Below, in pieces: positions 4,270-34,072 of a DNA stretch of 42,357 nucleotides (positions are counted from its first letter, which is position 1; the number at the start of each line of letters is the position of its first letter). The translations under genes were made by a program, and so were the position numbers. The stretch lies in assembly GCA_017473615.1 (NCBI GenBank), contig JAFUKL010000024.1:68029-110385 (forward strand), read 5' to 3'. Source of the DNA: Muribaculaceae bacterium (GTDB lineage Bacteria > Bacteroidota > Bacteroidia > Bacteroidales > Muribaculaceae). A model generated the notes under the pieces. That model searched no databases. It was not told the origin of the DNA and saw only the letters and a list, made by a program, of their open reading frames with translations.

Positions 4270-4300
4270 TTTGTTGGATGAAATAAATATGCTACATTTG
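4270..4300 (+). promoter_or_regulatory. Housekeeping-type promoter of the trpB-like gene
   Basis: TTTG at 4270-4273 is followed after exactly 19 bases by TACATTTG at 4293-4300. This matches the Bacteroides primary-sigma consensus TTTG-N19..21-TAnnTTTG. The predicted start of transcription is near 4307. An ATG at 4299 overlapping the -7 box therefore cannot be the translation start, which supports the internal ATG at 4363. Confidence 0.7.
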
Positions 4301-4362
4301 TGCATATACTTTCATTATTGGAAGAGTATATCTACATTTATATTAATAATATTATTTTTACT

Positions 4363-5760: not shown

Positions 5761-5800
5761 ACAGTTTGCTATTTAGGCTTTTAGCCTAAATAGCGACTGT
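5761..5800 (+). terminator. Perfect 12-bp hairpin after trpB
   Basis: GCTATTTAGGCT (5768-5779) pairs perfectly with AGCCTAAATAGC (5783-5794) across a three-base loop. The flanks ACAGT and ACTGT extend the stem with two bulged bases on the left and one on the right. It lies 33 bases after the trpB stop. The downstream tract is GT-rich (TGTTGTTGTCGTTT) rather than pure T, so this is a good hairpin but only a fair intrinsic terminator. Confidence 0.6.
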
Positions 5801-5978: not shown

Positions 5979-6533
5979 ATGATTAGGGACGAAATAAATA
6001 AGCAATTCTACGAATTATTTAAGCAAAAGGATAGATTTATCCGTTTTGCTTATTATTATGTGCTGGATCATCAGGTAGCTGAGGATTTGGTAATGGATTC
6101 GTTCCTGTATTATTGGGAAAACCGTAATAACGTTGATATTAATGGCAATCTTCAAGCTTATATATTGAGGATTGTGAAACATAAGAGTTTGGATTACTTG
6201 AAGTTGCAACGAATACATAGCGAGGCTCACGAAAAGATACGTGAGGATGCCATGTGGGACTTGAATAAAAATATTGCAAGTTTGGAACAATTCGAGCCTT
6301 ATAAGGTGATGACAGACGAGTATCACCGGATTGTTGTGAATGCTGTGAAGCAATTGCCCGGTAGGACACGTGATATTTTTGTCATGAGCCGCGTTAAAGA
6401 AATGAAATACAGTGAGATTGCCGAAAAACTGAATATATCGGAAAAAACCGTAGAATATCACATGTCGAAAGCTATAAGGATTCTTAGGGATAAATTGAAA
6501 AATCTTTATGTATTAACATTTTTTATCTTTTAG
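5979..6533 (+). CDS. ECF RNA polymerase sigma factor (SusC/FecR-linked group)
   Basis: The 184-residue protein has the two-domain ECF layout. Region 2 covers about residues 15-80, with AYYYVLDHQVAEDLVMDSFLYYWENR followed by LQAYILRIVKHKSLDYLK for -10 recognition. Region 4 covers about 110-165, with LPGRTRDIFVMSRVKEMKYSEIAEKLNISEKTVEYH, a helix-turn-helix that reads the -35. It directs RNA polymerase to the neighbouring uptake genes when its anti-sigma factor is inactivated. It lies directly upstream of fecR and a SusC with an STN domain, the standard trans-envelope signalling order. The C-terminus ends in a hydrophobic tail (LTFFIF). Function as an ECF sigma factor is firm; its exact regulon is inferred from position. 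Confidence 0.93.
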   Translation: MIRDEINKQFYELFKQKDRFIRFAYYYVLDHQVAEDLVMDSFLYYWENRNNVDINGNLQAYILRIVKHKSLDYLKLQRIHSEAHEKIREDAMWDLNKNIASLEQFEPYKVMTDEYHRIVVNAVKQLPGRTRDIFVMSRVKEMKYSEIAEKLNISEKTVEYHMSKAIRILRDKLKNLYVLTFFIF

Positions 6534-6582
6534 TCAATAAAATAACTCAAAAACAGTTTAGGGTTTTTATCGGTAAGTTCGC

Positions 6583-6602
6583 TTTATCTCTGTAGAGATA
6601 AA
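6583..6602 (+). promoter_or_regulatory. Hairpin abutting the fecR start codon
   Basis: TTTATCTC (6583-6590) and GAGATAAA (6595-6602) form a perfect 8-bp stem with a TGTA loop. Its 3' arm ends on the base before the ATG at 6603, so the ribosome landing zone of fecR is inside the stem. A role in lowering FecR translation relative to the sigma factor is an inference. Confidence 0.5.
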
Positions 6603-7544
6603 ATGAACAATATGAATAAAGATACTTTGTATAAATATTTTTCCCGCCAATTATCTGCCGAGGAACGTAAAGCCGTGCAAGAATGGGTGGACGAGTCGGA
6701 GGAGCATTTAGCTGAATTTATGTCGGAGAGGGCGATGTTTGACGCATCGTTGCTTTTGATTTCTTCTGAAGATGTGGAATCGTCATCGAAGAATATCGGG
6801 CGTGTAAAACGTATGTTTGTGCAAGTCTTGAAAGTGGCTGCGGTTGTTGCAGTTACCTTGTGCTTGTCACATATATATAATACGGTGACATTTGAGAGAA
6901 ATATACCTATGTGTGAATTGAAAGTACCCGCCGGTCAGCAGATGAACATAACGCTTGCCGATGGTACTAACGTGTGGCTTAATTCCCTCACCACGTTGCG
7001 CTATCCGGCTCTTTTTGCAGGTGATGAACGCCGCGTGATGATAGACGGAGAGGGATATTTCGATGTTGAGAAAGATGCAGAAAAGCCCTTTTGTGTAGAG
7101 ACCTCCAAGGGTACGATAGAGGTGCTTGGAACGGTGTTTAACGTAGACGCTTATTCCAAATGCGACAATTTCAGCACTGCGCTGATAAGTGGCAGGGTGA
7201 AGATAATGGCAGATAACCAAGAATATTATTTGAATCCCGACCAAATGGCATGTCGTAATGCCGACGGGTCAATGTCTATAACAGAAATAGTCAATTATGA
7301 TCATTTCAGATGGAAAGAGGGTATAATAAGCCTTCAGAACGAGTCCTTTATGCAAATCATGAGGAAATTCGAGAAGTTCTACGGCATTAAGATTGTGGTA
7401 GACAAGCAAGGTATGGAGCAATTTGCATATACCGGTAAATTCTATCAGGCAGACGGTGTTCGCTATGCGCTGAAACTACTGCAACATGATATAAATTTTG
7501 ATTTTGAGAGTGATTACGAAAATAATATTATCCACATTAAATAA
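6603..7544 (+). CDS. FecR-family anti-sigma factor
   Basis: The 313-residue protein is a single-pass inner-membrane anti-sigma factor. A short cytoplasmic N-terminal domain (about 1-70, with KYFSRQLSAEERKAVQEWV) would bind the sigma factor. One transmembrane helix follows (about 75-92). The periplasmic FecR domain is at about 105-200 (LADGTNVWLNSLTTLRYP and GEGYFDVEKDAEKPFCVET), and a DUF4974-like C-terminal domain at about 240-312. The periplasmic part normally contacts the STN domain of the cognate SusC, which is the next gene. The start could be 6603 or the in-frame ATG at 6612 (MNKDTLYKYF), which is the commoner N-terminus in the family. It lies 69 bases after the sigma gene and is probably co-transcribed. 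Confidence 0.93.
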   Translation: MNNMNKDTLYKYFSRQLSAEERKAVQEWVDESEEHLAEFMSERAMFDASLLLISSEDVESSSKNIGRVKRMFVQVLKVAAVVAVTLCLSHIYNTVTFERNIPMCELKVPAGQQMNITLADGTNVWLNSLTTLRYPALFAGDERRVMIDGEGYFDVEKDAEKPFCVETSKGTIEVLGTVFNVDAYSKCDNFSTALISGRVKIMADNQEYYLNPDQMACRNADGSMSITEIVNYDHFRWKEGIISLQNESFMQIMRKFEKFYGIKIVVDKQGMEQFAYTGKFYQADGVRYALKLLQHDINFDFESDYENNIIHIK

Positions 7545-7688
7545 AATCTGATTGCCTATGGAATAAAACGAAGGAGAGACTATTAATCGGGTGACTTGCC
7601 ATAAACAGAGGCTCGTTTCCCCATGAAAACGATTAAAAACGGAAAAACTTAACTAATTATTTTTTTAAACCTTAAGTTTGACAAAAAT

Positions 7689-10600
7689 ATGAATCAAAGA
7701 GCAGAGGGTTTTATACCTCGATTAAGAACAATTAATCAATTATTGAAGATTTTTGTCTTGTCTATGTGTCTTTTTGCATTGCCAACGGCTTATGCGAGTG
7801 CACAAGGGAGCAAGATAAAGTCTCAAAAAGTGACACTTTCTGTGAAAGAACAATCGGTACAGAAGGTGTTAAGTGAAATTGAAAAACAGACAGGTTATCT
7901 GTTTGTAGTGAATCAAAATGTCGATACAAAGCGCAATGTCAGCATCGATGTTAAGTCAAAGAACGTAAAGGATGTGTTAAAGCGCCTTTTCGCCAAGACT
8001 GATGTAGCTTATGTATTCGACGGTCATAACATCCTGTTGTCTTCAAATATGCCTAAGGCAGAAGAGACAAAGGAATCGGCATCGAGCAGCGCACGCACAA
8101 TCACCGGTTTGGTGGTTGATGACAGCGGAGAGCCGCTTATCGGTGCTAACGTGCGTGTTAAAGGAAATAATAAGGTGGGCGTAGTTACCGACATCGACGG
8201 TAGATTTTCGCTTTCCGGAAATTTCAGTAACAGCACGGTGCTTACCGTTTCTTTTATCGGTATGAAGACAGCCGATGTGAAATTAGGTAACAAAAGCAAT
8301 GTTTCGGTAACTCTTGCACCCGATCAAGAACTTCTTGACGAAGTCGTGGTTGTCGGTTACGGAACACAAAAGAAAATCAATTTGACAGGTGCAGTAAGTA
8401 CTGTAAATGTTGCCAAGCAATTGGAAGCTCGTCCTATTACCGATGTTGCACGCGGTTTGCAAGGTTCGGCTCCGGGTCTTACAGTGCGTACTTCTACCGG
8501 TGAAATGGGAACGGACCCGACAATGAAAATCCGTGGTGTCATCGGTTCGGTGAACGGTAGTTCAAGCCCGTTGATTCTTGTGGACAACGTTGAATGTAAC
8601 AGCCTTCAGAACATTAACCCTGAAGATGTGGAAAGCGTTTCAGTATTGAAAGATGCTGCATCTGCTTCTATCTATGGTGTTAAGGCTGCATTTGGTGTTG
8701 TATTGATTACCACAAAGAAAGCGAAGAAGGGTGACAAGTTCCAAATCAGCTACAGCAACAACTTCTCATGGAAACGTCCTACCGTTACTCCTGAAATTGT
8801 TGAAACATACGAAGGTGCTGAGATGTCTTGGCAGGCAGGTCTTCGCCAAAACCCTAACTTGAGCGAACAGACCAACGCATGCTATTTGACATGGAATCTT
8901 GAGTCTATCGAGAGAATGAAAGAGTGGAAGCGTGTTTATGGCGACTATAACTTAAGCCCTGAATATGTGCTTGGTCGTGACTTCGACATCAAGGATGGTA
9001 AGCTTTATTTCTATCGTAGTTATGACGCTGCCGATGAATTCATCAAGAAAGATGCGTTCCAGCAAACTCACAACATCTCTGTATCAGGTTCATCAGGCAA
9101 TACATCTTATAATTTGGGCTTGGCATACCTTGGTTCAGAAGGTATTATGAATATCAATACCGACTCATACGATCGTTACAATGTATCTTTCAGCACCAAC
9201 ACCACTTTGAACAAGTGGGTTGACATCCGCTCTAAGTTATTGTACACTCGTTATCAATATGAAACTCCGTATTCATTGTCAAATGCTTCGGCATCTTATG
9301 ATGAGTGGTACTATTTCTACCGTTGGCCGAAAATCTATCCGTATGGAACATATCAGGGCATTCCTTTCCGTAATGCAGCTACTGAAATCGAGCAGGCTAA
9401 CCGTAATAAGAAGACCAATAACTACGCTCGTATCTCTTTGGGCGCAACAGGTCACATTCTTCCGGGACTTGACCTTGAAGTCGACTATACTTTCACTCAC
9501 GTAAACCGTTACAGCGAAATCAACGGTGGACAGGCTGAAGGATGGAACTTCTGGGGTGGTAGCGGACTTGTGAATGAAGTTTGGACACCAAGCTCATTGA
9601 ATAAAGCATATCGTGCAAACGATACCAGTGATTTCCATGTATTGAACGCTTTGGCTCGTTACAATAATGTATTTAAGGAAGATCACACTCTCGGTGTGAT
9701 TGCCGGTACCAATATCGAGCATTATCAGGCATACGGTAACACCAGTGAACGTCGTGACTTGTTGCTGATCGACCGTCCTGAAATCTCACTTGCCAACGGT
9801 GATCAATACGCTACTTCTTACCACACTCATGAAGCTCGCGTAGGTTTCTTCGGACGTATCAATTATATGTTCAAGAACCGTTATTTGCTTGAAGTTAACG
9901 GACGTTTCGACGGATCATCTAATTTCCCGTCAAATAAGCAATGGGGATTCTTCCCATCAACATCTTTGGGTTGGATCGTATCAGAAGAAAGTTTCATGCA
10001 AGGTTTGAAACCATACTTGAGCCAATTGAAACTTCGCGGTTCTTGGGGTCAGATAGGTAACCAAGACGTGGGTTCAAATATGTTCCGTTCAATTCTTTCT
10101 CCTACCACTACCACTTGGATTGTGGGAACTACAGGAGAACGTTCGTTCGGTCTTCCTACAGCAGTTCGTGACGGTTTCACATGGGAAACTATCACTACTA
10201 CCGACTTAGGTTTTGATACTCGTTTCTTCGGTGGACGTTTCGGCGTTTCATTCGACTGGTTCCAGCGTGTCAACAGCGACATGATTACAAGCGGTGACGC
10301 TCTTCCTTCAACATTCGGACAGACTGCTCCAAAGCAGAACTATGGCGAATTGACTACAAAGGGATGGGAATTGTCACTTGACTTCCAGCACCGTTTCAAC
10401 TTCGGTCTTGGACTTAACGTAACCGCTTATATCAGCGACGCTAAGGCTAAATATACCAAAATCAGCGGAAACTCTCGCCTTATCAGCGGCTTGTATGAAG
10501 GTAAGGAATATGGTGAAATCTGGGGCTTTGAAACCGATCGCTTGTTCCAAGAAGATGACTTTGAAACCGATCCTTCAGGAAACTTGGTGTTGAAAGAAGG

Positions 10601-11261
10601 TATACCTACTCAGGAATATTACGAAACCAACGGCTGGTTCTTCTACGGACCGGGTGACGTGAAGTTTAAGGATCTTGACGGTGACGGAAAGATTACTCCG
10701 GGTGACGGAACAATCGATAATCCCGGCGATAAGAAACGCATCGGTAATACTACTCCGCGCTATGAATACGGTATCCGCCTTGACATGACTTACAAAGGTT
10801 TTGACTTGGGTATATTCTTGCAAGGTGTAGGTAAGCGCGAATTGTGGTCTACCGGTTCAATCGTGGTTCCGGGCTTCAACTATCTTGAAGCATGGTACAC
10901 TCACCAGCTTGACTATTGGACACCTGAGAATACAGGAGCGTTCTATCCTCGCTTGACCAACCAAGGACAATCTAACCAGGCAATGAACTTCTTGCCACAG
11001 ACAAGATACTTGCTTGACATGTCTTATTGCCGTGTGAAGAACGTAACTCTTGGTTACACATTCCCGTCAAAGTGGATGAACAAAGTGAAAATAAGCAAAT
11101 GTCGTTTGTATGTTTCATTAGAGAACTTGTTTGAATTTGACAACCTTGGCGACATGCCTATCGACCCTGAAACAAACACCAGTGGTAGCGATGGCGGTTA
11201 CTTGGGACGTTCTTATCCATATTCTCGCACAACATCATTTGGCTTGCAAGTAACATTCTAA
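7689..11261 (+). CDS. SusC/RagA-family TonB-dependent transporter with STN signalling domain
   Basis: At 1190 residues this is a full-length SusC-type receptor. In order it has a signal peptide (about 1-40, ending near AYASAQG), an STN domain (about 45-112), a carboxypeptidase-regulatory-like domain (about 135-210, ITGLVVDDSGEPLIGANV), a plug (about 225-345, with VVGYGTQKK, PLILVDNVE and SIYGVKAAFGVVLITTKK) and a 22-strand barrel ending in LQVTF. It imports large ligands across the outer membrane using TonB and a SusD lid. The STN domain marks it as the sensor for the FecR/ECF switch just upstream. The 144-base gap from fecR presumably holds an ECF-dependent promoter, which I cannot define. 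Codon use is strongly biased (CGT, CTT, AAC), suggesting high expression. The ligand is not readable from sequence. Confidence 0.97.
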   Translation: MNQRAEGFIPRLRTINQLLKIFVLSMCLFALPTAYASAQGSKIKSQKVTLSVKEQSVQKVLSEIEKQTGYLFVVNQNVDTKRNVSIDVKSKNVKDVLKRLFAKTDVAYVFDGHNILLSSNMPKAEETKESASSSARTITGLVVDDSGEPLIGANVRVKGNNKVGVVTDIDGRFSLSGNFSNSTVLTVSFIGMKTADVKLGNKSNVSVTLAPDQELLDEVVVVGYGTQKKINLTGAVSTVNVAKQLEARPITDVARGLQGSAPGLTVRTSTGEMGTDPTMKIRGVIGSVNGSSSPLILVDNVECNSLQNINPEDVESVSVLKDAASASIYGVKAAFGVVLITTKKAKKGDKFQISYSNNFSWKRPTVTPEIVETYEGAEMSWQAGLRQNPNLSEQTNACYLTWNLESIERMKEWKRVYGDYNLSPEYVLGRDFDIKDGKLYFYRSYDAADEFIKKDAFQQTHNISVSGSSGNTSYNLGLAYLGSEGIMNINTDSYDRYNVSFSTNTTLNKWVDIRSKLLYTRYQYETPYSLSNASASYDEWYYFYRWPKIYPYGTYQGIPFRNAATEIEQANRNKKTNNYARISLGATGHILPGLDLEVDYTFTHVNRYSEINGGQAEGWNFWGGSGLVNEVWTPSSLNKAYRANDTSDFHVLNALARYNNVFKEDHTLGVIAGTNIEHYQAYGNTSERRDLLLIDRPEISLANGDQYATSYHTHEARVGFFGRINYMFKNRYLLEVNGRFDGSSNFPSNKQWGFFPSTSLGWIVSEESFMQGLKPYLSQLKLRGSWGQIGNQDVGSNMFRSILSPTTTTWIVGTTGERSFGLPTAVRDGFTWETITTTDLGFDTRFFGGRFGVSFDWFQRVNSDMITSGDALPSTFGQTAPKQNYGELTTKGWELSLDFQHRFNFGLGLNVTAYISDAKAKYTKISGNSRLISGLYEGKEYGEIWGFETDRLFQEDDFETDPSGNLVLKEGIPTQEYYETNGWFFYGPGDVKFKDLDGDGKITPGDGTIDNPGDKKRIGNTTPRYEYGIRLDMTYKGFDLGIFLQGVGKRELWSTGSIVVPGFNYLEAWYTHQLDYWTPENTGAFYPRLTNQGQSNQAMNFLPQTRYLLDMSYCRVKNVTLGYTFPSKWMNKVKISKCRLYVSLENLFEFDNLGDMPIDPETNTSGSDGGYLGRSYPYSRTTSFGLQVTF

Positions 11262-11280
11262 ACCTATAAAATGGAATATT

Positions 11281-13005
11281 ATGAAGAAAAGATATAGTTT
11301 AATTGCATTTTTGATGTTTGCCGTAGCATCTTTGACATCATGTGATGATTTCTTGGATTGCGCTCCTTACGATTCTATCGACGATTCGGAGTATTGGCAA
11401 AATGAGACACATATACGCACATATTCTTATGGTTTCTATCCGTCATTCTTTAACGGATTCGGAACAACCAAGCTTATCGGCGGCAGTTCATTCGGTAACG
11501 GTGACACTTTTAATGACGACGTGGCTTGGAGAACTCAAGGCGAGTTTACTCCGATACGCGTGCCCGATTCTGATAGCGGATGGGATTTCGCATTGGTGCG
11601 TAAAGCTAATTATATGCTTGAAAAGGTGCATTCTGTGCCGGGCTTGAGCGATGACGCAATGAAGCACTGGGTAGGTATAGCGCGTTTCTTCCGCGGTATT
11701 GCATACTCCAATCTTGTGTTTGCTTACGGTGATGTGCCTTTCTTCAATAAGCGTGTAGATGCTTCCGATACTGAAACTCTCTACAAGGATCGTGATCCGC
11801 GTACCGAAGTGGTCGACAGCATTATGAAAGACTTCAAGTATGCTCTTGAATGGGTGAGAACCGATGACGGAAATTTGACAATCAACCGCTACGTAGTGGG
11901 TGCAATGGTATCTCGCTTGATGTTGCGTGAAGGTACTTTCTTGAAGTATCACAATATCGATGCGTCAAAAGCTGCTGAAGCTATAGGTCTTGCACGCGAT
12001 GCTGCCAAGGTGGTGATGGGCTCCAATAAGTTTGCGATTTCTGAAGATTATAATGCATTGTTCTCAAGCGATGACCTTGCAGGTAATACTGAAGTTATCT
12101 TCTATCGCCAATATCTTGACGGAGTATTGACACACTGTGTGCTTACTTACAACAATGCCGAAGCTCAAACAGGTGCTAACAAGGCACTTTTGGATTCTTA
12201 CTTGATGAAGGACGGTAAACCTATCGGTCTTAGCACAACTTGGAACGGTACTACGGCTGCAGGTTATTTCAGCAACCGCGACCCGCGTATCAATGAGACA
12301 TTCCGTGAAAAGTACTATTTGCGCGGTGAAGATTGCACTCCGTTCAACTATTCTACTTCGGGATACTCTATGCGTAAGTTCATGGACGACTCTCAATCAT
12401 CAAGCGGTGATTTGAAATATCGTCAGCAGAACAACGTGACCGACTGTCCGCTTCTACGCTATGCCGAAGTACTTCTTAACTATGCCGAGGCTCGTTATGA
12501 ATTGGGCGAACTTACTCAGGATGACTTGAACAATACAATCAACCTTATCCGTGCGCGCAAGGGTGTTGAGATGCCTAAGCTGGAAATGGTGGGAGAATCT
12601 CCTGCTGTAAACGGCGAAACATACGATGACCCGCAACGTGATCCGGAAGTTTCAAGCCTTCTTTGGGAAATACGTCGCGAACGCCGTGTGGAAATGTGTT
12701 TCGAGGGTCTTCGTTACAGCGACTTGAAACGCTGGAAGAAACTTGACTACATGTATAACGGTGCTAATCCTGACATCAAGTATGGTGCTTATATCAACTA
12801 TGATGATTATCCTAAGGTAAACAAGGCTGAAGTTGTAATCGAAGACGATGCTACTGAAGGTTACATCCTATGTAATACAGGAACAGAGCGTCAAGCTCCT
12901 GAGGATAAGAACTATGTTAAGCCTGTTCCAAAGGATCAGATTCAGTTGTATAAGGACAACGGCTACACTCTGACCCAGACCAAGGAATGGCAGAATGAAG
13001 AATAA
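11281..13005 (+). CDS. SusD/RagB-family surface lipoprotein
   Basis: The 574-residue protein begins with a lipoprotein signal (lipobox LTSC, Cys21, followed by DD), so it should sit on the outer membrane. The early FLDCAPYDSIDDSEYW motif, the helical TPR-like core with GIARFFRGIAYSNLVFAYGDVPFF, and the C-terminal LLRYAEVLLNYAEARYELG and RRERRVEMCFEGLRYSDLKRW segments are classic SusD/RagB features. It forms the hinged ligand-binding lid over the SusC barrel encoded 19 bases upstream. Length is normal for the family and no frameshift is visible. Ligand identity must come from context. The co-localised amidase and GHL10 enzyme favour a peptidoglycan-derived glycan, though this is inference. Confidence 0.96.
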   Translation: MKKRYSLIAFLMFAVASLTSCDDFLDCAPYDSIDDSEYWQNETHIRTYSYGFYPSFFNGFGTTKLIGGSSFGNGDTFNDDVAWRTQGEFTPIRVPDSDSGWDFALVRKANYMLEKVHSVPGLSDDAMKHWVGIARFFRGIAYSNLVFAYGDVPFFNKRVDASDTETLYKDRDPRTEVVDSIMKDFKYALEWVRTDDGNLTINRYVVGAMVSRLMLREGTFLKYHNIDASKAAEAIGLARDAAKVVMGSNKFAISEDYNALFSSDDLAGNTEVIFYRQYLDGVLTHCVLTYNNAEAQTGANKALLDSYLMKDGKPIGLSTTWNGTTAAGYFSNRDPRINETFREKYYLRGEDCTPFNYSTSGYSMRKFMDDSQSSSGDLKYRQQNNVTDCPLLRYAEVLLNYAEARYELGELTQDDLNNTINLIRARKGVEMPKLEMVGESPAVNGETYDDPQRDPEVSSLLWEIRRERRVEMCFEGLRYSDLKRWKKLDYMYNGANPDIKYGAYINYDDYPKVNKAEVVIEDDATEGYILCNTGTERQAPEDKNYVKPVPKDQIQLYKDNGYTLTQTKEWQNEE

Positions 13006-13034
13006 TAGTGTAATCACCCTAAATTGATTTAAAA

Positions 13035-14744
13035 ATGAATATAAGAAATATATATTTATGTTTAAGCATGCTTTTCTGCCTTGTATTAGGCACAGCATGT
13101 TCTGATGACCCAATAGTGGAGAATCCATCGGGTGAGACATTCATCTACTCGTTGAGTATCACCAATGCGGGTCTTACAGGAACTGAAACCGTACAAGGTA
13201 CTCTTAATGAAGAGGCTAAGACTGTGGATTTCACGATTCCTGCAGAAAGTGACATCGAGGCTATCAAGTTCAGCGGTAAATTGTCGCTTGGTGCAAGTCT
13301 CGACCAAGAAAGCTATGATGTGTCTTCGGGTTCGGCTCAGGTTACAGTGGTGAACGTTGAAAACCGCGGTACTTATACCGTAAACGTTACATTGCTGCCT
13401 GCTACAGCTACTCCGTTGCTTCAAAAAGTGGTGGTTCGTGACGCTAACGGTACTGAAAAAGACGGTTTCGTGAGTGTACTCGATAAGACTGTTTATTTGA
13501 AGAGCCCGGAATCGGAATGGGTTGAAATCGTATCGGTTTCTTGTTTGCCTAAGCGTATTGATGTAGTTTGGACAGGTATGGATGGCGATAAAATTTATGC
13601 AAGCAATCCGGGTAAACTTGAATTAAATTTCGAGGGATTCACCGATGAATACCGTGTGCTGTTTGACGCTAATCCTGTATTCGGTGCTGATTTCATAAAT
13701 TACAACATGATAGAACGTGCAAATAGTAATATGTATCCTGACTATGCGGGTTCTATGGTACGTAGTGCCGATTTCGATGGTAAGGAATTGCTTGTTGTAT
13801 CTCGTTTGGGTAATGCACTCTTGCCAAAGGTGATGAAAAAACTTGATTTCGTTGCTAATACATTTGAAGAAAATGTACTTGACGTAACCGGTATCGAGGG
13901 TGGTACATATCTGATCAGTGCAGGTCGCTTGTCTCATGGTCATGTTTACATTTGTAACCTTTCAACAGGTGTAACTGCAGAGAACCCATTGAAGATTTAC
14001 CATTGGTCTTCTACCGAAGCCGGCGTAGTTCCTGAAGTTGTAGTAAACTTTGATGGTACAAGCTCGTTGGGTGGCGCACAAATTAAGAAACTTGCCGATG
14101 GTGAAGATACAACTTTGGGAGGTCGTCTTGGCGATAATCTGTCGGTATGTTTGGATGAGGCAGGTAATGGATACGCATTCTTGTTGCCGCAAGAAGGTGC
14201 AACCAATGTCCTACGTTTCACCGTTACCGGATTCACCACATTCTCTGATCCTGTATTGATTGTATCTGAAATAGCGGCTGACTATTATGCGGCTTTCAAT
14301 AAGGTGGAAGGTTCTGAAGATGAGTATGTATTTACAAGTGCAAGAGCTTTGGTTATGATTGTTAATCATGATGTGCAGCCTTTGTTCAAGCTTGGTGCTG
14401 AAGCTGTGCCTACTCTTGGAACCGATGCACGTATCATCACTTACGATGCAGAACGCTACTTGATAATGACAACAGGTCGTCGTGCTTCTTGGTCGGGTGA
14501 CCCGATATCAAAGTTCCTCGTATATAACATCTCTGATGGTTCTAATACATTGATTGCTCTTAAAAACTTTGATGAGCTGGAAGAGCGTGTGCCGGTATTC
14601 TCTTACGAACTTGGCGGTACTTACAGTAACGGTGCTTGTGCTGCTAATACCGGTTATGGAGTATCTGAAGACGGCAAATTATTGCTGATGACATCGGCTA
14701 CGCCGGCTGGTTTCACAATCTTTGAATTCCCTGAAAAACAATAG
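13035..14744 (+). CDS. SusE-position surface lipoprotein (DUF5018-like Ig domains plus C-terminal DUF4623-like propeller)
   Basis: The 569-residue protein has a lipoprotein signal (lipobox LGTAC, Cys22, then SDD). The Cys-Ser-Asp-Asp start resembles the Bacteroidota surface-export signal. Residues about 35-120 and 125-215 look like two Ig-like beta domains (TETVQGTLNEEAKTVDFTIP, as in DUF5018 proteins). The rest (about 225-567) is a beta-rich repeat domain with DFDGKELLVVSRLGN-type blades that recalls DUF4623 propellers. The third position after SusC and SusD is usually taken by a surface glycan-binding protein. No enzymatic motif is visible, so a ligand-binding role is the simplest reading. 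It is 29 bases from susD and ends in a strong terminator, closing the SusCD unit. Domain names are from memory of the families and not verified by search. Confidence 0.75.
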   Translation: MNIRNIYLCLSMLFCLVLGTACSDDPIVENPSGETFIYSLSITNAGLTGTETVQGTLNEEAKTVDFTIPAESDIEAIKFSGKLSLGASLDQESYDVSSGSAQVTVVNVENRGTYTVNVTLLPATATPLLQKVVVRDANGTEKDGFVSVLDKTVYLKSPESEWVEIVSVSCLPKRIDVVWTGMDGDKIYASNPGKLELNFEGFTDEYRVLFDANPVFGADFINYNMIERANSNMYPDYAGSMVRSADFDGKELLVVSRLGNALLPKVMKKLDFVANTFEENVLDVTGIEGGTYLISAGRLSHGHVYICNLSTGVTAENPLKIYHWSSTEAGVVPEVVVNFDGTSSLGGAQIKKLADGEDTTLGGRLGDNLSVCLDEAGNGYAFLLPQEGATNVLRFTVTGFTTFSDPVLIVSEIAADYYAAFNKVEGSEDEYVFTSARALVMIVNHDVQPLFKLGAEAVPTLGTDARIITYDAERYLIMTTGRRASWSGDPISKFLVYNISDGSNTLIALKNFDELEERVPVFSYELGGTYSNGACAANTGYGVSEDGKLLLMTSATPAGFTIFEFPEKQ

Positions 14745-14759
14745 CAATAGTTTAGGTGT

Positions 14760-14808
14760 GCAGCCGGGGCTTAGTGCCGCTGCGGGACTTATCCCGGCTG
14801 CTTTTTTT
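14760..14808 (+). terminator. Strong intrinsic terminator after the SusCD-lipoprotein unit
   Basis: GCAGCCGGG (14760-14768) pairs with CCCGGCTGC (14793-14801) and is followed directly by seven T residues. The 24-base loop can itself pair (AGT...ACT and CCGC/GCGG), making a long GC-rich stem. This separates the SusC/SusD/lipoprotein transcript from the propeller and amidase genes. Confidence 0.85.
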
Positions 14809-14906
14809 AAAAAAAAGTAAAACGAAATCTTGGACTTATTTGCAATAATTAAGTCGATAAGGCTGATAGAAATTAAAAACCGAATACGAATTAAAACTAT
14901 TAGATT

Positions 14907-16538
14907 ATGAAAAAAATATTTTTACCTATAGTTGTTTGTTTGGCAACGGCAATGAGTGCCAATGCTGTAGACGCAGGCAATGCAAATATCTATGCATCCG
15001 GTCTGAAAGTGCTCAATGGTGGAAGTGATGTTCAGTTTGTACTTAATGCTCCCGGTGATGTAACCGTAAATTTCTATAAAGAAGGTGTAACTGATGCTGT
15101 TTATTCAATTTCAAAAACGGGTCTTGAAAAAGGTACACATACTGTGTCTTTAACCGGTGTCTTACCTGATGCCGTAAAAGAAGGCGATCAACTTTCATGG
15201 GAAGTTGTTGCATCAGCCGAAGCAAAAACTGCGTGGGTGGGATTTTCTGCGAAAGCAGCCGGTTTATCAGAAATTCCGGCAGATCAAAAAATGTGTTATC
15301 CCGTTGGAATTGCGGTAGATAAAAATCCTAAGAGTCCATTTTTTGGTAATATATATCTACTGAATAATAATAGTGGAACTGTTGGAGGATTCGATGTCGC
15401 TAATTCAAATCTTGGAACAGGCGTATATATTTATAACTCTTTAATTGAATGTCAAAATCCAGGAGAGAATCATGAAACAGTATATTCTGGTGGTGTTAAT
15501 TGGGGTAATACATTGGATTCAGACCGCTGTGCAAACATATCAGTATCACCTGCAGATATAACAGTTGATGATGATGGATTTGTTTATATTTCTGATATGA
15601 GTACAGAGACTGGAGGGGTATATAGAATGAATCCAGCAAATCCAGAAAGTGATTTTGAAAAGATATTAACAGTAACAACAGACAATCACAATGGTGTATG
15701 TGGACTTGCTGTTATAGGTACAGGTGACGAAAAAACTTTATGGACAGTGAATATGAATCTTGCATTTTTATCAGATACAGAACGTCCGCTATCAGGATAT
15801 TTATATAAGTATAATTTGAACAAGTTGGCTAATGATAAAACCTATACCGGAGAGAAAGTCTTGGAAATTAAAGATTATACTATGGGTGGTAGGAATAATA
15901 CTTATTTGGCACCGGATAGGCGTGGTGGTGTATGGTTGGCGCAACGCTGGAATAGTTCAAGTCGAGGTTACTTTACATTAGTGCATGTTAATAAGAATAG
16001 TGAAGTTAGTTCATTTGGAAATCTTAAATATTGGGATGATTATTTTGGTACATTTACAAAGAATACTATTTCTGCTTATGCAATGGGACTGGATACAAAT
16101 TCTGATGGAACAAAAGTTGTAATAGGAGTGTATGGTGCAATAGGGGTACAAGATATAACCTATGATGAAAAAGGAAATGTAGCAACTTATGAAAATAGTT
16201 CTAATTATTTGGCTGGTTATTCTGGTAATTCAAATAATAATTCAAAAATTAATCATTTGGTAAATGGTGTTGCATATGATGCTGTAGGAAATGTGTATGT
16301 AGCTGATTGGAGTGATTATTTCCAAGCATATGCATCTTTGCCAGCTGAGAACAAATATACAACACCGGCAAATGAGCATGTTACAGTGAGCAAAGAGATG
16401 ACAGGTGTGGAAAGTACAATTGCCGATGAGAATGCTCCGGTAGAGTATTTCAATATGCAGGGTGTGAAAGTTAACGCTCCTGAAAATGGAATCTTTATCA
16501 AGAAACAGGCAGGCAAAACTACTAAAGTGATTTTATAA
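14907..16538 (+). CDS. Secreted beta-propeller protein, paralogue of the amidase C-terminal half
   Basis: The 543-residue protein has a Sec signal peptide (about 1-20, ending SANA). An Ig-like module follows at about 25-115, starting NIYASGLKVLNGG. A propeller-like region at about 125-480 repeats NHL/SMP-30-like blades (ITVDDDGFVYISDMS, GGVWLAQRW, GNVYVADWSDY). The C-terminal 35 residues (YFNMQGVKV...GIFIKKQAGKTTKVIL) resemble the short T9SS-like sorting tail common in Prevotella and Muribaculaceae secreted proteins. Module by module it aligns with residues about 385-860 of the next gene product. Bases about 15300-16400 are much more AT-rich (25-30% GC in sampled lines) than the paralogue (about 47% in one line), so the two copies have separate histories. 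No catalytic motif was seen; ligand binding or scaffolding is likely. Confidence 0.75.
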   Translation: MKKIFLPIVVCLATAMSANAVDAGNANIYASGLKVLNGGSDVQFVLNAPGDVTVNFYKEGVTDAVYSISKTGLEKGTHTVSLTGVLPDAVKEGDQLSWEVVASAEAKTAWVGFSAKAAGLSEIPADQKMCYPVGIAVDKNPKSPFFGNIYLLNNNSGTVGGFDVANSNLGTGVYIYNSLIECQNPGENHETVYSGGVNWGNTLDSDRCANISVSPADITVDDDGFVYISDMSTETGGVYRMNPANPESDFEKILTVTTDNHNGVCGLAVIGTGDEKTLWTVNMNLAFLSDTERPLSGYLYKYNLNKLANDKTYTGEKVLEIKDYTMGGRNNTYLAPDRRGGVWLAQRWNSSSRGYFTLVHVNKNSEVSSFGNLKYWDDYFGTFTKNTISAYAMGLDTNSDGTKVVIGVYGAIGVQDITYDEKGNVATYENSSNYLAGYSGNSNNNSKINHLVNGVAYDAVGNVYVADWSDYFQAYASLPAENKYTTPANEHVTVSKEMTGVESTIADENAPVEYFNMQGVKVNAPENGIFIKKQAGKTTKVIL

Positions 16539-16545
16539 AAAATAG

Positions 16546-16580
16546 TTGGGCTTATAAGCCTAATCGGCAGATAAGCCCAA
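16546..16580 (+). terminator. 9-bp hairpin between propeller and amidase genes
   Basis: TTGGGCTTA (16546-16554) pairs perfectly with TAAGCCCAA (16572-16580). The next bases are TAAAAAATAAG, so there is no T-tract, and it may be a processing or mRNA-stability hairpin rather than a true terminator. The left arm also lies in the palindrome GGCTTATAAGCC. Confidence 0.5.
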
Positions 16581-16609
16581 TAAAAAATAAGTTTTAAACT
16601 AATATTTTT

Positions 16610-19330
16610 ATGAAAAAAGTGATTTTAACAGCAGCTTTGGCGTTGTGCTGTGCCACAACGATCGGAGCAGCCGATATGACCGGTAAAAAGGTGTATATCA
16701 ATCCGGGTCATGGCGGTTATTGGAATGGTGGAACTATCGAGCAGGAAGTGGATGCAAGCGGAAATGTGATTACCCCGCGTAAGGGTAACGACCGTTTTGT
16801 GGCTACAATTCCTTTCCCAACCGAGTCGGAAGCGGGCTTTTGGGAGTCAAAGAGTAACTTGGTAAAGGGTCTTGAGTTGAAGAGATTGCTTGAGGCTGCA
16901 GGTTGCGAAGTGATGATGTCACGCACCACTAACACTGAGGCTGACGATAAGGACTTGAAGTCTATAGGACTTGAGGCTAATGCTTACCTTGGTGCTGCCG
17001 CTGCAGCAAATCCTGCGAATGTGGCGTTTATCTCGGTTCACTCCAATGCACTTGGTTCAAATGGCGGTATCAACTACTTCCTGAACCTGTATAATATGGA
17101 TGCTGACAAGTTGGGCAAGAATGCTACGTATATGGCTTTGGGTCAAAGCATGGCTACCAACTCTGCATCATTGCTTATGGATAATGAAATTACCGTGTGG
17201 AGCCCTACAGCTCCTAAGATTTGGGAAGATAACCAATTTTTGGGTTATACTCTTGGTGTGCTTCGTCACCTTGATGTGCCGGGTTTCCTTGTGGAAGGCA
17301 GTTTCCACGATTATCAGCCTGAAACTCACCGTTTGTTGAACGATGATTATTGCAAGCTTGCAGCTTACAATATGTATCGTTATTTCTGTGAGTATTTCGG
17401 AGCAGATAAACCAAATACCGGTGTTATTGCGGGCGCAGTAAAGCATGACCAAATGATTATCAAAGAAAAGAACTATAAGAACTGGGTTAAAGGTTCTCAC
17501 GACCGTTTCTATCCTATCAACGGTGCTACAGTAACCCTTCTTGATGCTAACGGAAATACATTGAAGACTTACACTACCGATAATAATTACAACGGTGTGT
17601 ATGTATTCTGGGATTTGACACCGGGAGCATACAAAGTGAAGATGGAGGCTGCGGGATTTGAAGCTCAAACTATAGATGTAACTGTAGAGGCTTCTAAAAT
17701 CACCGACCAAGTAACACAACTTCACGATCCTAATTACGTTGCTCCGGCACCAGCATTGGCTATTCCTAACGTATATGCATCAGGTTTGAAGGCTACTGCA
17801 ATTGCCGATGGCAAATATCAAATCGATTTCACATTGAATACGACTGCCGAAGATGTAACTGTTAAGGTTTACGAACAAGACGAAAATGCTACAGTGCTTG
17901 TTAAGGAAGTTAGCTATGGCGCAAAGGAAAAGGGTGCTAATTCAGTAGAACTCAACTTGGCGGGAGTGAACGGAACAGGCTTGACTTGGGCTGTAGAGGC
18001 TACAGGACCGTCAACAAACACCGATTCTCCTGTGAACTTCGTTAACTATACCGATCCTGCGGTTCAGTATGGTGCACCTACCGATGTTAAGGTGGATAAT
18101 AATACTGAAAGCGAATTCTTCGGACGCGTGTATGTACTTAATTCTATAGGTAAAGCTGCCGATAACCGCACAACTGCCGATGGATTATTTGTACTTGACG
18201 CTACATTGAGCGATGTAACCGGACAAGGAGATAAAGCATATACAGGTAATATAGTTTGGGCAGAGAATTCGGCATTGACATCGGTGGCAAGTCCTCACCG
18301 TATGGCTCTTGATGAAGAAGGTAATATCTTTGTATGTGACTGGAGTGATGGTCATTCAGGCGTATGGTATGTAGCTGCAAATAATTTGAACAGCGAATGG
18401 AAACCGGTATTCGGCGGTACAAGAAACAGTGACGGTCTTGCATCTGAAGGCGGTGTGGCTATTCACGGTTCTCTATCGGCTATAGCTGTGGCAGGTAAAG
18501 GTGACGAACGCACTCTTTATACATACGATGAAGACTATGCTGTGAACGGATCAGCTTCGATATTGAATAGTTATAAGATAGGAACACTTGCCAATACTTG
18601 GGTTTCTGCTCCAACCACAACTCGTGTGAACGGAACTGACGGAATAAATCACAATGCGGGACAAAAAGGCTATTTGCAAGCCGACGGTAAGGGCGGTCTT
18701 TGGGTTTCTCAATACCGCGGTGGTGCAGCAAGCACTCACCCTGCGCTTGTTCACTACAATGCAGCCGGTGCACCTGACTTCACTCATACCATTTGGGACG
18801 GACGTTTAAATTATGCCTTTGCCGTAAACCAAGCAGGCGATAAGTTTGCCGTAAACAGTGGAACATCTATATTGTTAGGTGATATTACATACGATGAAAA
18901 CGATGTACCTACAGTGACATTGAATGAAATCGAAGTTGAGGCAGAAGGCTCTAACACCTACGGTCTTGCATTTGATGCAGCCGATAACTTGTATCGTGTG
19001 GCAAGTGATGTTCAATATTTGCAAGGTTTTGCATGGCCTAAGGAAAATAACAGCCATGAAACAAAAGCTCCTTCAAAATATACATTGAACGGAACTACAG
19101 GTATCGATGACGTGACTACAGGAGGCGTAACAGTGAAAGCTGTGGGTGACGACTTGGTAATCACATCGGCTAAGGCTGTCGATACAGTTACAATATATTC
19201 AATGGCAGGTGCAGCAGTATATGCAAATGCCGGTGTTAACGCTGAATCATTGACAGTGAATATGGCATCTTGGTCTAACGGTGTATATATCGTAAAGGTT
19301 GACAATAAGGTATACAAGATTGTTAGATAA
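16610..19330 (+). CDS. Secreted N-acetylmuramoyl-L-alanine amidase (Amidase_3) fused to propeller and T9SS domain
   Basis: The 906-residue protein has a signal peptide (1 to about 20). The zinc amidase domain (about 25-265) would cleave the lactyl-amide bond between MurNAc and the stem peptide. All expected residues are present: His34 in NPGHGGYW, Glu79 in WESKSN, His144 in ISVHSN and the catalytic Glu229 in FLVEGSFH. A carboxypeptidase-regulatory or SpaA-like Ig domain follows at about 275-375. Then come an Ig-like module starting NVYASGLK (about 388) and a propeller (about 480-825), both paralogous to the preceding gene. The protein ends with a canonical type A T9SS sorting domain (about 835-906, VTIYSMAGAAVY...NGVYIVKVDNKVYKIVR). 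A housekeeping AmiA/AmiC enzyme would be about 250-450 residues, so this is an exported, surface- or medium-directed form. It is 71 bases after the propeller gene and is followed by a structured terminator-like RNA. Confidence 0.93.
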   Translation: MKKVILTAALALCCATTIGAADMTGKKVYINPGHGGYWNGGTIEQEVDASGNVITPRKGNDRFVATIPFPTESEAGFWESKSNLVKGLELKRLLEAAGCEVMMSRTTNTEADDKDLKSIGLEANAYLGAAAAANPANVAFISVHSNALGSNGGINYFLNLYNMDADKLGKNATYMALGQSMATNSASLLMDNEITVWSPTAPKIWEDNQFLGYTLGVLRHLDVPGFLVEGSFHDYQPETHRLLNDDYCKLAAYNMYRYFCEYFGADKPNTGVIAGAVKHDQMIIKEKNYKNWVKGSHDRFYPINGATVTLLDANGNTLKTYTTDNNYNGVYVFWDLTPGAYKVKMEAAGFEAQTIDVTVEASKITDQVTQLHDPNYVAPAPALAIPNVYASGLKATAIADGKYQIDFTLNTTAEDVTVKVYEQDENATVLVKEVSYGAKEKGANSVELNLAGVNGTGLTWAVEATGPSTNTDSPVNFVNYTDPAVQYGAPTDVKVDNNTESEFFGRVYVLNSIGKAADNRTTADGLFVLDATLSDVTGQGDKAYTGNIVWAENSALTSVASPHRMALDEEGNIFVCDWSDGHSGVWYVAANNLNSEWKPVFGGTRNSDGLASEGGVAIHGSLSAIAVAGKGDERTLYTYDEDYAVNGSASILNSYKIGTLANTWVSAPTTTRVNGTDGINHNAGQKGYLQADGKGGLWVSQYRGGAASTHPALVHYNAAGAPDFTHTIWDGRLNYAFAVNQAGDKFAVNSGTSILLGDITYDENDVPTVTLNEIEVEAEGSNTYGLAFDAADNLYRVASDVQYLQGFAWPKENNSHETKAPSKYTLNGTTGIDDVTTGGVTVKAVGDDLVITSAKAVDTVTIYSMAGAAVYANAGVNAESLTVNMASWSNGVYIVKVDNKVYKIVR

Positions 19331-19353
19331 GGTTAGTTAATAATTGTTGTGAC

Positions 19354-19474
19354 GCAGAGTCTTTGTCGGAGAATTGCCGGTTAAAAACGGCACATTAAAT
19401 CCTGATTGCAATAGACTACGTTAGGTCGGAGATGCTAATCCGACAAAGATTCTGCATTTTTTTATCTTTTTTTT
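19354..19474 (+). promoter_or_regulatory. Structured leader/attenuator-like RNA before the GHL10 gene
   Basis: GCAGAGTCTTTGTCGGA (19354-19370) pairs over 17 bp, with one G-U, to TCCGACAAAGATTCTGC (19439-19455). It is followed by seven T at 19457-19463 and a second T-run to 19474. Inside the 68-base loop, TGCCG/CGGCA (19375-19379/19388-19392) and CCTGA/TTAGG (19401-19405/19421-19425) can form two arms. A second GTCGGA at 19425-19430 can instead pair locally with TCCGAC (19439-19444), which would break the long terminator stem. The ATG of the GHL10 gene is only 28 bases further on. The structure could simply terminate the amidase mRNA; a switching role is inferred. Confidence 0.6.
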
Positions 19475-19483
19475 GAAGAAAAC

Positions 19484-20989
19484 ATGAAATTAAAAACTAT
19501 TGCGATGTTGCTTATGTCCTTCGCCTTAGCGGGCTGTGGCGGTGATGACGAACCGTCGACAACTCCACCGGGCGGAACAGGAGGCGACGAACCGGGGCAA
19601 ACGGTAAAAATAACAACACCGGCAAAAGAAATACGTGCTGTATGGCTTGCCACTGTGGGTAACATGGACTGGCCTACCGATAAATACAGCATCGAAAAAC
19701 AAAAACAGGAATATATCAATTACCTTGAACTGTTCAAGCAGTATAACGTGAATGTCGTTGTAGGGCAGATTCGTCCTACTGCCGATGCTTTCTTCGCATC
19801 GCAATATGAGCCGTGGAGCCAGTATCTGACAGGAACAAGAGGTAAAGACCCAGGTTATGACGTGGTGCAGTTCATGGTGGATGAAGCGCATAAACGCGGA
19901 CTGGAATTTCATGCATGGCTTAACCCTTACCGCATAAGCACTAACATAAATGCCTATAATCCTGTGGAGGGTGAATTTTATAAGGAGCATCCCGAGTGGA
20001 CTATGAAATATGGCAACCTGCTTATATTCCGTCCTGCCGTTCCTGAGGTGCGTCAGCATCTTGTGAATGTGATAGATGAAATATGCAGCAAATATGATGT
20101 GGACGGTATTCACTTCGATGATTATTTCTATCCTTATCCCGACGGCAAGAACACCCTTGATGATATGGGTGATTACAATAAATATGGAAAAGAATACAGT
20201 AATATAGAGGATTTCCGCCGCGGCAACGTGAACAAGGCTATAGAGGACGTCCATAATCTGTTGGCAAATAAATATCCCAGTGTGGTATTCTCCATCAGCC
20301 CTTACGGCGTGTGGAGAAACAAGAGTAAAGATCCTGTATACGGATCAAACTCAAGCACTTCTATCACCAACTATGACGACTTGTATGCCGACATAAGATT
20401 ATGGTGCGAAAAAGGCTGGATAGACTTGGTTGTGCCACAATTGTATGCGACGACAAAGAATCAGGCGATGAATTTTACAACGATGACTTCTTGGTGGTCA
20501 AATAACAGTTTCGATTGTCCGGTGGCTATCGGAATCGCTATGTATAAGTTCGGTAATAAGGCTGAAGGTAATATTTATGTGGATGAACCTACTGAACTTG
20601 AAACCGAGTTCTATCATACCCGCCGTAACAAAGTGAGCGGTACATTTATCTTTAATTCATCTGCTTTCAAGAACAACAAGATAAACATCCTCGATTACCT
20701 TGCAAGATGTTATCCGCAGAAAGCACTGATTCCGTTCATGGGACGTGCCGTAGCGGCTCAACCGGTGAAGATTTCAAGTATATCGGCTGATGGAAAGACA
20801 TTGTATTGGAAAGAGCAAAAAGGTATGCGCTTTGTTATATATAGGGTAGTTGACAATGCCGGAACCATAGTTGACATAGTGGACGGCGTGAACACTTATA
20901 CATGCGCTGAGGCAGGCGACTATTCGGTGAGCGTGCTGAACGACGACAATGTGGAAAGCGAATTGTCGCAAGTGGTGACAGTCAAGTGA
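19484..20989 (+). CDS. GHL10-family glycoside hydrolase lipoprotein (DigH/YngK-like)
   Basis: The 501-residue protein has a lipoprotein signal (lipobox LAGC, Cys18, followed by GGDDE) and a Pro/Gly-rich linker. The catalytic TIM-barrel-type GHL10 domain (PF02638 type) covers about residues 48-375. It shows EIRAVWLATVGNMDWP, a long GQIRPTADAFF segment, HAWLNPYR and DVDGIHFDDYFYPYP, the last holding the acidic residues typical of this fold. A fibronectin-III-like beta domain ends the protein (about 410-501). E. coli DigH, of the same family, is reported to cut peptidoglycan glycans lacking stem peptides, which is the product of an amidase. Its position right after an amidase gene makes the same substrate likely here. 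The short stretch after the stop (20990-21094) contains the hisS promoter. Family call is firm, substrate inferred. Confidence 0.92.
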   Translation: MKLKTIAMLLMSFALAGCGGDDEPSTTPPGGTGGDEPGQTVKITTPAKEIRAVWLATVGNMDWPTDKYSIEKQKQEYINYLELFKQYNVNVVVGQIRPTADAFFASQYEPWSQYLTGTRGKDPGYDVVQFMVDEAHKRGLEFHAWLNPYRISTNINAYNPVEGEFYKEHPEWTMKYGNLLIFRPAVPEVRQHLVNVIDEICSKYDVDGIHFDDYFYPYPDGKNTLDDMGDYNKYGKEYSNIEDFRRGNVNKAIEDVHNLLANKYPSVVFSISPYGVWRNKSKDPVYGSNSSTSITNYDDLYADIRLWCEKGWIDLVVPQLYATTKNQAMNFTTMTSWWSNNSFDCPVAIGIAMYKFGNKAEGNIYVDEPTELETEFYHTRRNKVSGTFIFNSSAFKNNKINILDYLARCYPQKALIPFMGRAVAAQPVKISSISADGKTLYWKEQKGMRFVIYRVVDNAGTIVDIVDGVNTYTCAEAGDYSVSVLNDDNVESELSQVVTVK

Positions 20990-32166: not shown

Positions 32167-32180
32167 CTTAGCTTTAAATA

Positions 32181-34057: not shown

Positions 34058-34072
34058 ATATTAAGTTATTTA

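Follow-up and report, generated by a model that had tools for sequence, protein, structure and literature searches.

A SusCD Locus with Amidase_3 and GHL10 Proteins in a Muribaculaceae Bacterium, Probably Directed at Exogenous Peptidoglycan

Introduction

Among the systems described to date, Sus-like loci controlled by an extracytoplasmic function (ECF) sigma factor and a FecR protein are among the closest to the locus considered here, a set of eight genes at positions 5979–20989 of a 42,357-nucleotide stretch of DNA (the window) from a Muribaculaceae bacterium. The window corresponds to positions 68029–110385 of contig C15 (JAFUKL010000024.1) of a 2.0-Mb draft genome, which is 78% complete. 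The locus shares with those systems a SusC protein with an STN domain, a SusD protein, a lipoprotein in the place of the surface glycan-binding protein (SGBP), an enzyme lipoprotein, and the ECF/FecR pair. It differs from them in its enzymes, which comprise an N-acetylmuramoyl-L-alanine amidase alongside a GHL10 protein. The locus is probably a SusCD-type utilisation locus for exogenous peptidoglycan, a reading in which activity, substrate, and induction are predicted.

In a survey of 13,537 polysaccharide utilisation loci (PULs), the peptidoglycan-related glycoside hydrolase (GH) families GH23, GH24, GH25, and GH73 are strongly under-represented, for which remodelling is suggested as a reason, though several of the predicted PULs do contain enzymes of this kind (PMC6499787). 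As this survey names GH families, GHL10 proteins and amidases were presumably uncounted in it. Scavenging of wall fragments is known from some Bacteroidales, for which the step at the inner membrane has been described. In Tannerella forsythia, a muropeptide/N-acetylmuramic acid (MurNAc) operon comprising lytB, ampG, ybbC, murT, murK, and murQ scavenges environmental peptidoglycan fragments (PMC5388701). That operon serves the inner membrane and the cytoplasm, whereas the window locus would be its outer-membrane counterpart. SusC and TonB have no occurrences in the excerpt of PMC5388701, nor TonB in that of PMC7670621. Within the excerpted open-licence literature of PubMed Central, no genes were found assigned to the outer-membrane step or to surface enzymes of wall scavenging, and no described peptidoglycan SusCD locus was found. 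DUF4623 was not found mentioned in the open-licence papers searched either. Sus-type loci are already known, but a peptidoglycan-directed variant appears to be new, no description of one having been found in these searches.

Two characterized proteins, Cwp19 from Clostridioides difficile and DigH from Escherichia coli (which we take to belong to GHL10), share family and pocket residues with the window enzyme. Both act on the wall of their producer, in autolysis and cell separation, while the window GHL10 protein is a lipoprotein encoded beside SusCD. Cwp19 has been demonstrated to act on peptidoglycan as a lytic transglycosylase, and unsubstituted MurNAc forms the end of some of its products (PMC6016235), and DigH is a denuded-specific glycan hydrolase (PMC12288456).

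Gene Content of the Locus

All eight genes lie on the + strand, separated by gaps of 69, 144, 19, 29, 162, 71, and 153 bases, in order, and the families that a preliminary description had given them were all confirmed by position and profile matches. The set starts with an ECF sigma factor (5979–6533; TIGR02985, 3.5e-45) and a FecR-type anti-sigma factor (6603–7544; FecR, 5.4e-15; FecR_C, 1.3e-13), followed by a SusC/RagA TonB-dependent transporter (7689–11261; TIGR04056, 1.3e-263) holding a Plug domain and an N-terminal STN signalling domain (3.1e-13). Linked regulation is therefore represented by the sigma factor, FecR, and the STN domain on SusC. Adjacent to susC is the gene of a SusD-family lipoprotein (11281–13005; SusD, 2.2e-38), whose lipobox LTSC was read off the translation. 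The next lipoprotein, bearing DUF4623 (13035–14744; 1.7e-69), occupies the SGBP place, and this position suggests a surface glycan-binding role; its nearest solved structure, 4ftd, is itself uncharacterised. A secreted NHL-type propeller protein (14907–16538) has a weak NHL repeat match (5.9e-5), and a sequence search of the PDB with the whole protein yielded no match at 0.001. The last two genes encode an exported Amidase_3-propeller protein of 906 residues (16610–19330; Amidase_3, CarboxypepD_reg, and Por_Secre_tail) and a GHL10 lipoprotein (19484–20989; GHL10, 1.1e-70) related to Cwp19 and the DigH family.

This GHL10 lipoprotein is the linked candidate for a glycan-active enzyme, an activity predicted by homology. 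Its match to PF02638 (238.6 bits) exceeds the curated cut-off of 27.9, and its best solved match by far is Cwp19 (5oq2; E 7.6e-89, residues 47–398), the next being alpha-galactosidases (2.5e-5). Of the 13 pocket residues discussed for Cwp19, 12 of them listed plus Asp195 (PMC5765458), 12 are kept in the window protein as read by eye, with S368 replaced by N. Moreover, W54, W145, R150, and D212-D213-Y214 are invariant in all 19 aligned GHL10 rows, three of which are paralogues from the window's own genome.

The amidase protein holds an Amidase_3 domain (approximately residues 28–254), a CarboxypepD_reg domain (302–371), a propeller (377–842, limits chosen by the analyst), and a type IX secretion system (T9SS) type A sorting tail (850–902). 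Its match to PF01520 exceeds the curated cut-off (37.1 bits versus 27), and H34, E79, H144, and E229 are the same in all 15 sequences of an alignment, the window copy included. These are presumably the zinc and catalytic residues of Amidase_3, and the earlier statement that all four active-site residues are present holds. The sorting tail is recognized by both Por_Secre_tail (29.4 bits versus 27) and TIGR04183 (31.8 versus 23), and a search for sprA, the one T9SS gene looked for, found it in the genome (2767 bits). The C-terminal half of the protein and the secreted propeller protein are related propellers, each matching the relatives of the other. A PDB sequence search with the whole amidase protein produced no match at 0.001.

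The amidase family also shows variation of its own. In rumen-type Muribaculaceae, a dockerin type I domain replaces the T9SS tail (L104:14056-16650, L101:14061-16664, L103:11746-13311, and others, L being our prefix for loci and G that for genomes). In the amidase alignment, 7 of the 15 members carry PF00404 (dockerin) and 3 carry Por_Secre_tail; the L101 protein likewise matches dockerin, and that of G1117 does so weakly, below the cut-off. The propeller protein of L103, the one scanned, has a dockerin as well (7.8e-12). The family is expanded, with matches to the 906-residue query in 102 of 198 family genomes at 0.001, many of which hold at least four in frames of approximately 800 and 1250 residues, some being propeller-only. 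A stand-alone 379-residue amidase (L049:146-1282, in G042 of the same genus) is 72% identical to residues 1–378 of the window protein and lies approximately 6 kb from a trpB-like gene resembling that of the window; DUF4623 is matched in G042 only weakly and in part.

Many secreted amidases directly adjoin the gene of a small TolB/PD40-like propeller (L042, L045, L048, L056–L061, L125, L127–L129, L131, and many DUF4623 loci), suggesting that both proteins may form a functional unit. Such a neighbour is not found beside the amidase in the window, L108, L110, L111, L112, and L117. In L057:1353-15233 and L058:302-18907, an 805-residue amidase and its TolB-like partner stand beside a run of AmpG-like and NamZ genes, called with profiles built in this work in two genomes of one genus. 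This arrangement provides a link, separate from SusCD, between the amidase family and muropeptide scavenging.

Conservation in Related Loci

The search for related loci was anchored on DUF4623, which is neither of the two enzymes. A scan of named genomes returned 22 loci, with record titles of Muribaculaceae, Prevotellaceae, Porphyromonadaceae, Candidatus Barnesiella, Candidatus Limisoma, Bacteroides, Parabacteroides, Bacteroidales, and Dysgonamonadaceae. Overlapping samples of 395 phylum, 395 class, and 397 family genomes were searched in addition; nine of the ten loci from one later search duplicated named loci and were dropped. The evaluable set comprises 26 loci, the window itself excluded: the 22 without L102 and L114, in which the contig stops short of the relevant genes, plus G199, G466, G427, G896, G927:C179 (L162, reached through the GHL10 tree), and G1117 (L165). 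Genes were called with profiles built here, and every counted amidase and GHL10 protein also matched Pfam in separate scans (14, five, and one relatives for the amidase; 15 and nine for GHL10). The Golvesin proteins of L126 and contig C3 were left out of the amidase count; one of their relatives, in L109, reaches 20.9 bits versus the cut-off of 27.

The same gene order, sought in other genomes as the preliminary description had proposed, recurs in relatives, so that the order is more than chance. Homologous loci consistently lacking both enzymes, which that description had named as evidence against its proposal, are not what was found: GHL10 is present in 24 of the 26 loci (all but L100 and G1117), Amidase_3 in 20 (all but L106, G199, G466, G427, G896, and G927:C179, as judged from the stretch analysed), both in 18, and at least one in all 26. 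These relatives are mostly metagenome-assembled genomes, where absences can be assembly gaps. Stretches were extended upstream only for L107, L109, L113, and L118, and the GHL10 genes of these four loci, the amidase of L107, and the MurQ gene of L127 were found only in upstream extensions. L106 was not extended, and the GHL10 gene of L105, cut by the contig end, was counted.

Four loci (G199, G466, G427, and G927:C179) hold the order SusC-SusD-DUF4623-GHL10, and G896 the order DUF4623-GHL10-SusC-SusD. As this quartet occurs without the amidase in these relatives, SusC-SusD-DUF4623-GHL10 is a widespread core, to which the amidase has been added in many Bacteroidales. The constant enzyme is GHL10 and not the amidase, which was rejected as the defining enzyme, being absent in six of the 26 loci whereas GHL10 is absent in two. 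Outside the family of the window, the core is represented by few loci, namely those of G199, G466, G427, and G896, by label, and possibly records G927–G931.

A DUF4623 match by itself was likewise rejected as a locus marker, since most matches in the phylum sample were partial, below 55 bits, and in frames of 401 to 2203 residues. There, 34 of 395 genomes had matches, and all but those of G199, G466, G427, and G000 were of this kind and were dropped. In the family sample, 38 of 397 genomes had matches, 17 of them full-type (above 165 bits).

Two loci have altered genes. In the second DUF4623 locus of G927, SusC is split into three frames (L162:9920-13735). In G931, the gene for GHL10 falls short of the length of its relatives and is followed by a further frame (L131:14670-16747); both cases may reflect either decay or sequencing error.

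Phylogeny of the GHL10 Copies

A tree of 52 GHL10 rows included 25 paralogues plus three from the window's own genome, out of 54 GHL10 matches; the copies of L105 and L132 were not entered, and four regions duplicating locus copies were dropped. Nineteen locus copies and L159 form one branch with a support of 100/100. L159 had been entered as a paralogue and turned out to be a further SusCD-DUF4623-GHL10 locus, so that all 20 rows of the branch are locus copies. The copies of L127, L128, L129, and L131 form a separate branch elsewhere in the tree (100/100), which implies that the pairing arose at least twice, or that one lineage replaced the other. A second GHL10 protein of L129, labelled as a locus copy by its position in the same stretch, groups with paralogues. 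On the tree as entered, the locus label needs 4 changes, and 0 of 500 shuffles were as low.

MurNAc-Related Genes in Relatives and in the Genome

Some related loci hold NamZ, MurQ, and SSF transporter genes, evidence that was beyond the reach of the preliminary description. NamZ is an exo-N-acetylmuramidase (DUF1343, today GH171) specific for peptide-free MurNAc-N-acetylglucosamine (GlcNAc), which would be the product of the window locus. Both NamZ and MurQ act on MurNAc compounds, while polymers of the poly-GlcNAc, chitin, and capsule type lack MurNAc. NamZ occurs in the same stretch in six of the 26 loci (L107, L109, L113, L118, L092, and L126; Pfam), MurQ in three (L092, L126, and L127; NCBIfam, over cut-off), and an SSF transporter in four (L092, L109, L113, and L118). 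With two genes per 3.3 Mb, NamZ is expected by chance in approximately 1.2% of 20-kb stretches, and six of 24 has P of approximately 3e-7 under independence, a value computed for 24 loci after the link had been noticed, with related rows such as L113 and L118 not being independent.

In L092 (G199), the order is NamZ-SusC-SusD-DUF4623-GHL10, then a phosphoesterase, a GH9 protein, a polysaccharide deacetylase, MurQ, and the SSF transporter. In L126 (G896), AmpG-like, NamZ, kinase, MurQ, and Golvesin genes precede one opposite-strand gene and then the core. In L107, L109, L113, and L118, NamZ follows downstream of DUF4623, accompanied by SSF in three of these loci, while the contig of L107 breaks off. 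Upstream they encode GHL10, TolB-like, and amidase-propeller proteins on the same strand. In G928–G931, one contiguous contig run comprises GHL10, amidase, SusCD, DUF4623, and NamZ, and MurQ lies beside GHL10 on the opposite strand in G928 (L127). The preliminary description had reported no standard polysaccharide carbohydrate-active enzyme; this holds for the window, but relatives carry NamZ.

The genome of the window has four GHL10 matches, two NamZ genes, and one MurQ gene. NamZ and MurQ are absent from the window and lie on other contigs, whereas NamZ is in the stretch of the six relatives above. Contig C3 holds MurQ, a weak match to a BadF-type kinase, an HGSNAT-like membrane protein, NamZ, SpoIID, and a Golvesin protein, as well as an AmpG-like permease whose 149.7 bits do not reach the NCBI cut-off of 350. 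This set resembles the T. forsythia muropeptide operon, whose ybbC is presumably NamZ; the murT/murK equivalents on C3 are likewise our assumption. Contig C39 encodes a 1273-residue amidase-like protein, a TolB-like protein, NamZ, and an SSF protein, with a 1140-residue GHL10 protein approximately 6.5 kb beyond the SSF gene and other genes between; the 1273-residue protein has no Pfam Amidase_3 match and was called with a profile built here (196 bits). Contig C16 (L042:3182-15654) encodes two NAGPA-like phosphodiester glycosidase proteins, GHL10, a TolB-like protein, and a 1259-residue amidase-like protein lying under or at the Amidase_3 cut-off (23.1 bits; 27.1 with neighbours). The one NAGPA-like protein that was scanned and the GHL10 protein match the T9SS tail below threshold (22.6 and 21.9 bits, respectively, versus 27), and SusCD was not found in this 20-kb stretch with the profiles used. 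With NamZ, MurQ, and the other genes, the genome contains genes for the steps following import.

Proposed Mechanism and Alternative Explanations

By analogy with known STN/FecR/ECF systems, a peptidoglycan-derived glycan on SusC would signal through STN, FecR, and the ECF sigma factor to switch the operon on, a step expected to apply to only part of the relatives. Outside the cell, the T9SS-exported amidase-propeller protein, whose class follows from its sequence and whose location is predicted, would strip the stem peptides off wall fragments. The GHL10 lipoprotein would then cut the bare glycan to short oligosaccharides, as homology to Cwp19 and DigH suggests; surface export of the amidase, an outward-facing GHL10 protein, and this order of action are likewise predictions. 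SusD and the DUF4623 lipoprotein may bind the oligosaccharides for import by SusC. Breakdown would be finished by NamZ in the periplasm and by MurQ and relatives in the cytoplasm; these genes are present, and their compartments and link to the locus are presumed. The amidase would let many Bacteroidales versions start from intact wall. As these tools face outward, exogenous wall is preferred over the cell's own turnover as the source.

Several observations weigh against this reading. L100 (a whole contig) and G1117 (with 5.2 kb downstream) have the amidase without GHL10, and L106 and five others have GHL10 without Amidase_3 in their stretch. ECF/FecR genes lie beside SusC in only nine of the 26 loci (L097, L098, L106, L108, L110, L111, L112, L117, and L165) and were not seen in the other 17, several of which have little upstream DNA; the signal control proposed for the window is not general. 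The locus is also sporadic, full-type DUF4623 occurring in only 17 of 397 sampled family genomes, the window's own included, and NamZ lies outside the locus in the window and in Muribaculaceae-type relatives. On the enzyme side, the Amidase_3 match of the window protein is modest (4.3e-9), and solved amidases match it no better than E 0.025. GHL10 alone does not fix the substrate: a weak Melibiase match is also found in 5 of the 19 GHL10 rows, and DogH from Deinococcus, the subject of a paper with ten mentions of GHL10, reportedly has starch as its substrate (PMC9967864).

Three alternatives appear unlikely, all to a similar degree. In the first, a RagAB-like SusCD would import the stem peptides freed by the amidase, the glycan cutter merely opening the mesh. 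The SusC/RagA family, to which the transporter belongs by TIGR04056, includes peptide importers, so that such import is possible, and Amidase_3 accompanies 20 of the 26 related loci. However, SusC-SusD-DUF4623-GHL10 occurs without Amidase_3 in six of them (L092, L093, L094, L126, L162, and L106), and the additional neighbours NamZ and MurQ are sugar-side genes. In the second, the locus would recapture the cell's own wall fragments. The preliminary description had left the choice between the walls of other bacteria and self-turnover open; peptidoglycan as such is supported by the comparison, but self-turnover is the weaker option, because the amidase has a tail for secretion, whereas the cell's own wall is located below the outer membrane. 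DigH, of the GHL10 type, and amidases do serve cell separation in E. coli (PMC12288456), and the genome has an AmpG/NamZ/MurQ-type cluster. Nevertheless, the T9SS tail in a genome with sprA, the outward look of ECF/FecR/STN and the SusCD importer, and the dockerin on the same enzyme in some relatives all argue for external wall. In the third, the substrate would be another amino-sugar polymer (poly-beta-1,6-GlcNAc, chitin, or capsule), with the amidase incidental, which the fold nearest Cwp19, that of the poly-GlcNAc enzyme PgaB (PMC5765458), the reportedly starch-acting enzyme linked to GHL10, and the GH9 and polysaccharide deacetylase genes of L092 would favour, but against which stand the presumably MurNAc-directed NamZ and MurQ of related loci (NamZ in six of 26, versus approximately 1.2% by chance).

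Boundaries and Flanking Genes

On the left, the locus is preceded by a trpB-like pyridoxal phosphate enzyme (4300–5727). A terminator-like hairpin of 14 pairs (5766–5796, + strand) lies between both and is the longest stem of a hairpin scan that was overall no better than shuffles (11 found versus 11.1). On the right lies hisS, whose start is very likely at 21095, preceded by a -7-like box of its own that was read by eye. A sigma-70 promoter scan of the window gave 37 sites versus 38.3 expected in shuffles and was not used, and the window gave no hits either to Rfam at gathering scores or in a tRNA scan. Farther away, an AMP-binding enzyme and an MR_MLE enolase-type enzyme (31132–35800, - strand), with neighbours that by eye look like menB and menD, probably belong to menaquinone synthesis.

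Concluding Remarks

Tentatively, SusC-SusD-DUF4623-GHL10 may be regarded as a dedicated outer-membrane module for foraging on the peptidoglycan of others, found under at least five Bacteroidota family labels, and the dockerin-bearing amidases of rumen-type Muribaculaceae might assemble in a scaffolded, cellulosome-like wall machine. Surveys by GH family would miss such a module, since GH families include neither GHL10 nor the amidase. The locus is a concrete candidate for the outer-membrane step of wall scavenging, its marker of SusCD, DUF4623, and GHL10 can be searched in any genome, and it suggests a role for DUF4623. In both gut and rumen, the walls of bacteria make up a large reservoir of amino sugars and amino acids, and a locus of this kind would also matter for the extent to which commensals clear immunologically active wall material.

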